From a virus, in IMG/VR virus record IMGVR_UViG_3300021964_005792, positions 1-35,372 of that record: DNA of 35,372 nt; one strand, given 5' to 3'. A program made the translations under genes and the position numbers. Below, in pieces: positions 9,300-12,563 of this stretch (positions within the stretch are counted from its first letter, which is position 1; every line of letters starts with the position of its first letter). Below the pieces are notes generated by a model. That model was given only the letters and a program-made list of their open reading frames with translations. It did no database searches and was not told where the DNA came from.

Positions 9300-9671
9300 A
9301 TGCTGGAGGTCACCCTTAACGAACCGGACGACTTTCTAAAGGTCCGGGAAACCCTTACACGCATTGGAGTCGCTTCTCGTAAAGAGAAGAAGCTATATCA
9401 ATCATGTCATATTCTTCATAAACAAGGCCGGTACTTTATTGTACATTTCAAAGAACTGTTTATGCTTGATGGCAAGAAATCTAATCTAGAACTCAATGAT
9501 GTCCAAAGACGTAACACTGTTGCTACGTTATTGAGTGACTGGGGTTTGATTTCGTTTGCAAAAGGCTCGACACTAGATTGTGCACCACTTCGTCAAATTA
9601 AAATTATTCCATACCGTGAAAAAAACCAGTGGGAGCTATGTCCGAAATACAACATCGGCGCTAAGGCTTAA
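9300..9671 (+). CDS. regA: RegA translational repressor
   Basis: With the start at ATG 9300 the protein has 123 residues, close to T4 RegA (122), and it aligns from the first residue (MLEVTLNEPDDFLKVRETLTR). LYQSCHILHKQGRYFIVHFKE, LLSDWGLI and the terminal PKYNIG are family hallmarks. RegA binds ribosome-entry sites of early mRNAs and represses their translation. An in-frame GTG at 9258 would add 14 residues not found in the family. GGAG lies about 10 bp upstream of 9300. Confidence 0.93.
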   Translation: MLEVTLNEPDDFLKVRETLTRIGVASRKEKKLYQSCHILHKQGRYFIVHFKELFMLDGKKSNLELNDVQRRNTVATLLSDWGLISFAKGSTLDCAPLRQIKIIPYREKNQWELCPKYNIGAKA

Positions 9672-10317
9672 CAAATCAATTAATCTCGACATTACTAACA
9701 AGTGCACGCTAGCTTGTGAGAGATGTGTTAGATCTGTTTATGATTATGAGGACACCAAGGTACCTGGTGGGGATATGTCTATTGATGATTATCTCAAAGT
9801 ACTCAAGTGGTTTGATAAAATAGAATTTTGTGGTAATATCTCAGATCCAACACTCCATCCCAAACTACCTGAGTTTCTTGCGTTAGCTGATCAACACAAC
9901 AAGCAGTGTATTGTGCATGTTGCTGCATCGCATAGACCAGTTGATTGGTTTATCAATGCATTCCATGCTAATCGAAATGCTATATGGCATTTTGGTATTG
10001 ATGGATTGCCGGCTGACAGTTGCAACTATAGACACAGACAAGACGGAACAAAACTATTTGACCTTATGGTTGCGGGTCGTGACATTGTCAAAAAAGTTGT
10101 TTGGCAATACATTATATTCTCGTATAATGAAAAAGATATTGATACGGCAACGTCGCTAGCGCGTTACTTAGGAATAGAAATCAAGTTCACAAAGTCGTCA
10201 AGGTTTTTTGCTAATGATCCATTGAAGCCAAGTGAAGGAATGTATATTCCTCGCAAAGGGTTCGAACAAGCATTGAGACAGCGGTATGAAAATCAAACCA
10301 AAGTGCCTGCAATCTAA
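9616..10317 (+). CDS. Radical SAM protein, N-terminal/core part
   Basis: The core has a CTLACERC cluster motif (CxxxCxxC) that would bind the 4Fe-4S/SAM centre, preceded by the strand INLDITNK, and a partial TIM-barrel with EFCGNISDPTLHP and WHFGIDG. It stops at 10317, just where a SPASM-like cysteine domain begins in the +1 frame. The start is uncertain: in-frame candidates are GTG 9616 and GTG 9580, both inside regA and without a clear Shine-Dalgarno site. The substrate is unknown. See the next feature and the finding on the split. Confidence 0.75.
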   Translation: MKKTSGSYVRNTTSALRLNKSINLDITNKCTLACERCVRSVYDYEDTKVPGGDMSIDDYLKVLKWFDKIEFCGNISDPTLHPKLPEFLALADQHNKQCIVHVAASHRPVDWFINAFHANRNAIWHFGIDGLPADSCNYRHRQDGTKLFDLMVAGRDIVKKVVWQYIIFSYNEKDIDTATSLARYLGIEIKFTKSSRFFANDPLKPSEGMYIPRKGFEQALRQRYENQTKVPAI

Positions 10318-10585
10318 TACTAGACCGCTTGGCCACTCAGCTGAGGGCTACCTACTTCCGTGTTGCTGGTGCGATAATATTGTGCACAAGGACAAATATA
10401 CTGAGCTGTTATATCAAGAACAACTAAAAATACAAAATAACGACAGAATAGAAAGTATTATAGATTCACGAGAATGGCAGCAGTTTGTTGATGCAATACA
10501 CTCAGATGACCCACCAAACGTATGCAAAACGTTTTGCGGCGAGTTGACTAGTACAAAAGAAACTATTATAATCAAACCTATATAA
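10286..10585 (+). CDS. SPASM-like C-terminal part of the radical SAM protein, in the +1 frame
   Basis: This 99-residue ORF begins inside the end of the core gene (32-bp overlap). It carries KPKCL, then LLPCCWCDN, then CKTFCG, the cysteine set expected of an auxiliary 4Fe-4S domain that normally follows a radical SAM core in one chain. It may be a separately translated subunit from ATG 10286, the product of +1 frameshifting between 10277 and 10317, or the result of a recent indel. Confidence 0.65.
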   Translation: MKIKPKCLQSNTRPLGHSAEGYLLPCCWCDNIVHKDKYTELLYQEQLKIQNNDRIESIIDSREWQQFVDAIHSDDPPNVCKTFCGELTSTKETIIIKPI

Positions 10586-11323: not shown

Positions 11324-11539
11324 ATGTTTTCACCAAAATTCTATATTGAGCAGTTCCAACACACCAAGAAGTTGGTTGGCGACCAGATGTTCAAGGACCA
11401 ACCTGAACTCAAGAAGGTTGCTGATCAATGGGTCGATGCTCAAACTCAATTCGCTGAAATGCTTGTCGACAACTCCATCGCCATGATGAAGTACAGTGTT
11501 GACCAGTTCTCGGCTTTTTCGAAAATGGTAACTAAATAA
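11324..11539 (+). CDS. Phasin-like small helical protein
   Basis: This is a 71-residue, fully helical amphipathic protein. Segments such as QWVDAQTQFAEMLVDNSIAMMKYS resemble the C-terminal coiled-coil region of proteobacterial phasins, which coat polyhydroxyalkanoate granules. AGGAG lies 7 bp before the ATG. It is shorter than bacterial phasins (about 110-190 residues). It could bind host storage granules or simply be a helical scaffold or chaperone; the neighbouring Hsp20 favours a chaperone-type context. The annotation is tentative. Confidence 0.6.
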   Translation: MFSPKFYIEQFQHTKKLVGDQMFKDQPELKKVADQWVDAQTQFAEMLVDNSIAMMKYSVDQFSAFSKMVTK

Positions 11540-11915: not shown

Positions 11916-12563
11916 ATGATATTAACAGACAACCGATTTACTATTGATTATTTTGAAAAATTGCCTACGGATATAAAACGTATAACTGTAGCCGCGTCTG
12001 GGGGATTAGACTCGTCTTTAATATTATATTGTCTTGCTAAGACGTTGAATGATCGTAGACAATATGATACTACTATCTTTATCCATCACGATATTGTTCT
12101 AAAATATAAACACACTCGTTCACAAAGAATACTAAAACAAGTTCTTCTTTTTATCAGAGAAAAATTTCCTAATGTAAATATAGAAGAACCGTATTATGGA
12201 CATCAACCGACTTTTATTAAAAGCAAAATGATTTATGGGGCATTTAGTCTATTAATTACCCACTTACGAACTCGTTCCCAGCTTACAATAATTGGTTACA
12301 CTAAACAAGACGATGAAACCCATAAAGGGTTGAAAAAATGGCTGCATCGTCTAGTAATAAAAGTACGACCCCAACAATTTCCGTTTAAAGACGTAGATAA
12401 ACATTTTGTCAAAGCACAATATGACCAATTAGGCTTACACGAGTTGTCATTAATGACTGGTACATGTGTGGAAGATGTGTATGGAGGCATGCCTTGCCGG
12501 AAGTGTAAGTGGTGTAAGATCCGCTATGAGGCATTTGGTACTTATGATTATGGTTATGTTTGA
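11916..12563 (+). CDS. QueC-like PP-loop ATPase, copy 1
   Basis: This 215-residue protein has an ATP pyrophosphatase motif SGGLDSS (about residues 28-34). Its C-terminal cysteine set, C-x9-C-x2-C-x2-C followed by KIRYEAFG, is the zinc site of QueC (7-cyano-7-deazaguanine synthase). QueC makes preQ0 from 7-carboxy-7-deazaguanine, ATP and ammonia. FolE, QueD, QueE and a DpdA-like gene in the same window support the pathway. It is unusually AT-rich and overlaps a second QueC-like gene by 8 bp. The two copies may divide the two QueC steps or use different substrates. Confidence 0.75.
   Translation: MILTDNRFTIDYFEKLPTDIKRITVAASGGLDSSLILYCLAKTLNDRRQYDTTIFIHHDIVLKYKHTRSQRILKQVLLFIREKFPNVNIEEPYYGHQPTFIKSKMIYGAFSLLITHLRTRSQLTIIGYTKQDDETHKGLKKWLHRLVIKVRPQQFPFKDVDKHFVKAQYDQLGLHELSLMTGTCVEDVYGGMPCRKCKWCKIRYEAFGTYDYGYV

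Follow-up and report, generated by a model that had tools for sequence, protein, structure and literature searches.

Known radical SAM enzymes of the SPASM and twitch types are single chains. The twitch-type enzymes BtrN, MoaA and SkfB have a CX3CX2C core and one auxiliary-cluster site, and the SPASM enzymes SuiB, PqqE and anSME carry a full SPASM domain with seven cysteines and two clusters. The twitch layout in SPASM/twitch enzymes consists of C-X(9-15)-G-X4-C and, behind a helix, two more cysteines (PMC6231123), and the role of the SPASM/twitch auxiliary cluster is still debated (PMC9012708). For TrnC/TrnD of thuricin CD, radical SAM activity has been described to depend on a complex between the products of two separate genes (PMC12093266). 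Many radical SAM genes are found in T4-like marine phages (PMC5332604; PMC7029224) and such genes are also carried by Campylobacter phages (PMC2853527). The protein gp083 of the Campylobacter phage CP220 was found to be single-chain. In a Baltic Sea survey, 261 viral 'ahbD' genes were reported and only three contigs contained both PF04055 and PF13186 (PMC9301287). No description of a split SPASM or twitch enzyme was found in open-access papers.

The DNA analysed here is the 35,372-base virus record IMGVR_UViG_3300021964_005792, hereafter called the window, in which the core and the auxiliary domain are not encoded as a single polypeptide. The gene for the radical SAM core subunit is located on the plus strand (9616–10317 bp) and was attributed to phrog_21308 (radical SAM, 4.2e-11), with the CX3CX2C motif at codons 9703–9726. 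Its product, which ends at the stop at 10317, is 233 aa long if translation starts at GTG 9616 and 245 aa long if it starts at GTG 9580. As the initial annotation had pointed out, only GTG starts are available, and no in-frame ATG was found upstream of the motif. The gene for the stand-alone SPASM/twitch subunit (10286–10585 bp, plus strand) begins with ATG 10286 and encodes 99 aa; it was recognized by its cysteine layout and homology. Its ORF is in the +1 frame relative to the core ORF and is open from 10277, and both frames are open together for approximately 40 bp ahead of the core stop. The overlap of the two genes (10286–10317 bp, plus strand) is 32 bp long. Coordinates and homology are thus in agreement with the core and the SPASM-like part in two frames that had been annotated initially, and homology identifies both frames as real coding sequence, the core having the CX3CX2C motif and the small ORF six cysteines.

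The gene order of the window is T4-like: the clamp-loader genes come first, then regA, the core/small pair, an Hsp20 gene, a tandem of QueC-like genes and the gene for DNA polymerase. The latter and the larger clamp-loader subunit were identified from their sequence. The gene encoding the RegA-type translational repressor (9258–9671 bp, plus strand; phrog_242, 1.3e-59) extends with its 3′ end into the beginning of the core gene. A search of phage records for DNA close to the window region gave no match. Note that two short proteins (11324–11539 and 11539–11766 bp) are phasin-like by eye and have no meaningful Pfam or PHROG match.

We assume, with a probability of about 0.82, that this locus encodes a two-subunit twitch-type (short SPASM) radical SAM enzyme whose small subunit is produced from its own start codon. 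The product of the first gene would be a partial TIM-barrel core that holds the SAM-binding [4Fe-4S] cluster, and the second gene would give from its own ATG a twitch domain of ~99 aa that binds one auxiliary [4Fe-4S] cluster. The twitch subunit would dock on the core, standing in for the C-terminal domain of the single-chain relatives. SAM would be cleaved by the core to yield the 5′-deoxyadenosyl radical, and the cluster of the small subunit would take up the electron from the substrate or bind the substrate. Such an enzyme would resemble TrnC/TrnD in requiring two gene products that form a complex; however, both TrnC and TrnD are active radical SAM enzymes, whereas only one protein of the window pair has a radical SAM core.

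The three cysteine residues of CX3CX2C (C30, C34 and C37 in the window core) are conserved without exception among the cores (72 of 72). The small protein of the window contains six cysteine residues arranged as C7-X13-G21-X4-C26, C27, C29 and, after a helix at positions 62–71, C80-X3-C84, which corresponds to the twitch motif (C-X9-15-G-X4-C and two further cysteines after the helix). Five cysteines, including C7, C26, C80 and C84, are invariant in all 72 small proteins. The seven-cysteine motif of full SPASM domains was not found, given six cysteines in the window protein and five invariant ones in the family. The Pfam SPASM profile matched 24 of 36 small-protein homologues (best value 3.5e-7). 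Neither Pfam nor PHROGs gave a meaningful match for the window small protein by itself, and when PDB sequences were searched with the small-protein profile, only chance matches and a weak match with BtrN (E 7.2) were obtained.

Modeling of the window small protein alone led to a pLDDT of 81.5, and a Foldseek search against PDB with this model gave no match. A natural fusion of the two parts (L035:2844-3803) was also modelled, with the cores and small proteins serving as the alignment, and a pLDDT of 83.3 was obtained. Structural matches of the fusion model included SuiB (Z 19.2), SkfB (17.4), PqqE (17.2), MoaA (17.2) and BtrN (16.3) as well as BlsE and anSME, and they span residues ~1–308, which is nearly the full length. 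PFL-activase, which has no SPASM/twitch-type domain, aligned to residues 12–189 only. The partial (beta/alpha)6 barrel was seen in this natural fusion model, the only one in which it was looked for. The fusion model matches the twitch-type enzymes BtrN, MoaA and SkfB at Z 16–17, with SuiB as the best whole-length match. Unlike these single chains, the phages encode the twitch domain in a gene of its own, upstream or downstream of the core. It should be mentioned that the L035 locus contains three single-chain fused versions (L035:2844-5981) and shares some of its neighbours with terminase-bearing phage loci.

To evaluate the family, viral contigs were scanned with a profile anchored on the small protein, and 80 of 168 relatives were retained. 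Together with the pelagiphage Mosig and loci from genome contigs, they gave 79 non-redundant core/small pairs, 56 with the core first and 23 with the small gene first. The only small ORF without a core partner was located at a contig end. No second core was detected upstream in several of the reversed loci (e.g., L026, L054, L055, L059, L063 and L084). Frame offsets were mixed (+1 in 32 pairs and +2 in 18), and an overlap was absent in some pairs and up to tens of bases long in others. In L018, the nearest relative, 2 nt separate the core stop from the ATG of the small gene; in the close relatives L005–L007 and L009, in Mosig and in others, the core precedes a small ORF of its own frame that has the motif PxC...G-X4-CCWCD...CxxxC. 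A QueC-like ATPase gene is located between the core and the small gene in L087, and a gene of a 536-aa B12-binding radical SAM protein takes this place in L010 (identical to L041). In L022, one ORF (L022:3498-4580) combines the small twitch protein with a glycosyltransferase domain of the phrog_1962 type, which indicates that the small gene is an independent unit; a similar long ORF was found in L048.

A second scan, anchored on the core, gave at least 599 stretches and at least 518 relatives. Among the best 80 of these, 44 had the core first, 2 had the small gene first, 22 were fused, 3 were at contig ends and one was a distant single-chain paralogue with its own cysteine domain; no core clearly lacking a twitch domain was found in this set, and the co-occurrence of core and twitch domain is thus near-obligate. 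The split state accounts for 46 of the 68 assignable cores and the fused state for 22, and the offsets were again mixed (26 of +1 and 18 of +2). In the core tree, the reversed order needs two changes and the fused forms are scattered among the split ones, so that the split is old and fusion or fission was repeated. Core and small-protein distances were correlated (r = 0.74 for pairs with the core first and 0.78 for the reversed ones), exceeding all 2000 permutations in both orders. This correlation is expected for partner proteins, but simple linkage predicts the same.

The initial annotation had offered a programmed +1 frameshift, two separately made subunits or a recent indel as explanations of the locus. 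A frameshift giving a single chain from both frames would fit the ~40 bp of shared open frame ahead of the core stop and the existence of natural single-chain fusions. At the level of the family, however, neither offset nor order nor overlap is conserved: 23 pairs are reversed, +1 and +2 offsets are mixed and some pairs do not overlap. In L087 and L010/L041, joining by frameshift is excluded because other genes lie between the core and the small gene. In addition, no RNA structure above chance that could stimulate frameshifting was found around the window overlap (z = 0.59), and the start codon of the small gene is conserved, with an ATG 3–12 codons ahead of the first cysteine in 79% of the small ORFs vs. 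23% for random core codons. A programmed frameshift is thus very improbable, although low-level frameshifting may take place in the window phage. An indel or assembly error that recently broke a single-chain gene was considered still less probable. Single-chain relatives do exist and are interspersed with split ones on the tree, but the split state spans the whole tree and the two genes are likewise present in distant relatives. Moreover, two other IMG/VR contigs match the window over 5489 bp with 0 mismatches (L001) and over 5051 bp with 25 mismatches, none of them in 9580–10585 bp (L002). An assembly error is therefore unlikely.

Separately made subunits are supported by the many homologues with core and small protein as separate genes. 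According to the initial annotation, many two-gene homologues and a clear ribosome-binding site of the second gene would together speak against a protein split by a frame change; the former were found, whereas no clear Shine–Dalgarno site was detected for the window small gene. Shine–Dalgarno-like sites precede 31% of the small ORFs vs. 13% in the background. Promoter-like sites around the small gene were at chance level, and translation of the window small gene is likely coupled to that of the core. Two separate proteins could also function without forming one enzyme, the small Fe-S protein being an electron carrier or a maturation factor for the core. The separate genes, the reversible order and the occasional genes in between are consistent with this, but in natural fusions the domain has exactly the position known from SPASM/twitch enzymes, and no core without the domain was found among the best 80 of at least 518 relatives, so that we regard this explanation as unlikely.

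The arrangement of core and twitch domain as two genes has been conserved across many aquatic phages. Genes 00084/00085 of the cultured Pelagibacter phage Mosig form the same core/small pair with a +1 offset and an 8-bp overlap, although at another genome position. They were annotated as two genes, namely 'putative molybdenum cofactor biosynthesis enzyme' and 'hypothetical protein'. Since the small gene was annotated as hypothetical, the description of radical SAM systems in phages is probably incomplete, and the split may account for the puzzling 'ahbD' annotations from the Baltic Sea. A natural enzyme with the auxiliary-cluster domain as a separate protein would allow this domain to be omitted, titrated or swapped while the core is left uncut.

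Among 50,697 phage records, a detectable small protein was found in Mosig only. When genome contigs of 84,980 species, each represented by one genome, were scanned, at least 7 loci were obtained, 5 of them with clear pairs, and these numbers are a lower bound as the search pattern was narrow. In two loci (L096 and L098), the pair is located on long contigs of Hyphomicrobiales MAGs, and in L096 it adjoins guaA and an SbmA/BacA transporter gene. A search with one phage terminase family gave no match in either of these genomes.

Glycosyltransferase-like proteins, DegT aminotransferases and nitroreductase-like proteins are among the recurrent neighbours of the pair. In L012/L090, the core is fused to a QueC-like PP-loop ATPase, and such an ATPase is encoded near the pair in L021, L026, L056, L061 and L097. 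QueC-like genes recur without being general: at a loose cut-off they were found in 7 of 20 chosen records, in some cases at a distance from the pair, and they are absent from many other records. The recurrent links to QueC-like ATPases and glycosyltransferases suggest that a small molecule or a glycan is tailored; a step on a small molecule or on a sugar, a nucleotide or a peptide is plausible, and any of the last three could perhaps be the substrate, with the QueC-like ATPase or glycosyltransferases taking part in its tailoring. Tandem arrays such as that of L061 and, in L010, the B12-binding radical SAM gene located inside the pair also hint at a modular toolkit of aquatic phages, in which mobile, separately expressed and perhaps exchangeable twitch subunits would serve different cores and act alongside QueC-like ATPases and glycosyltransferases in a tailoring pathway not yet described, but we put this forward only tentatively. 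The array itself (L061:3-4527) consists of four cores and three small genes in tandem with a QueC-like gene inside.

In the window, two QueC-like PP-loop ATPase genes are located on the plus strand 1.3–2.6 kb downstream of the pair, at 11916–12563 bp (PF06508, 1.5e-5) and 12466–13170 bp (PF06508, 1.2e-9), and the first is a possible pathway partner of the pair. The ORF of the second was listed with the start GTG 12466, and its true start is more likely near ATG 12556. The two listed genes form an overlapping tandem just upstream of the DNA polymerase gene, and a similar tandem was found in L021/L023.
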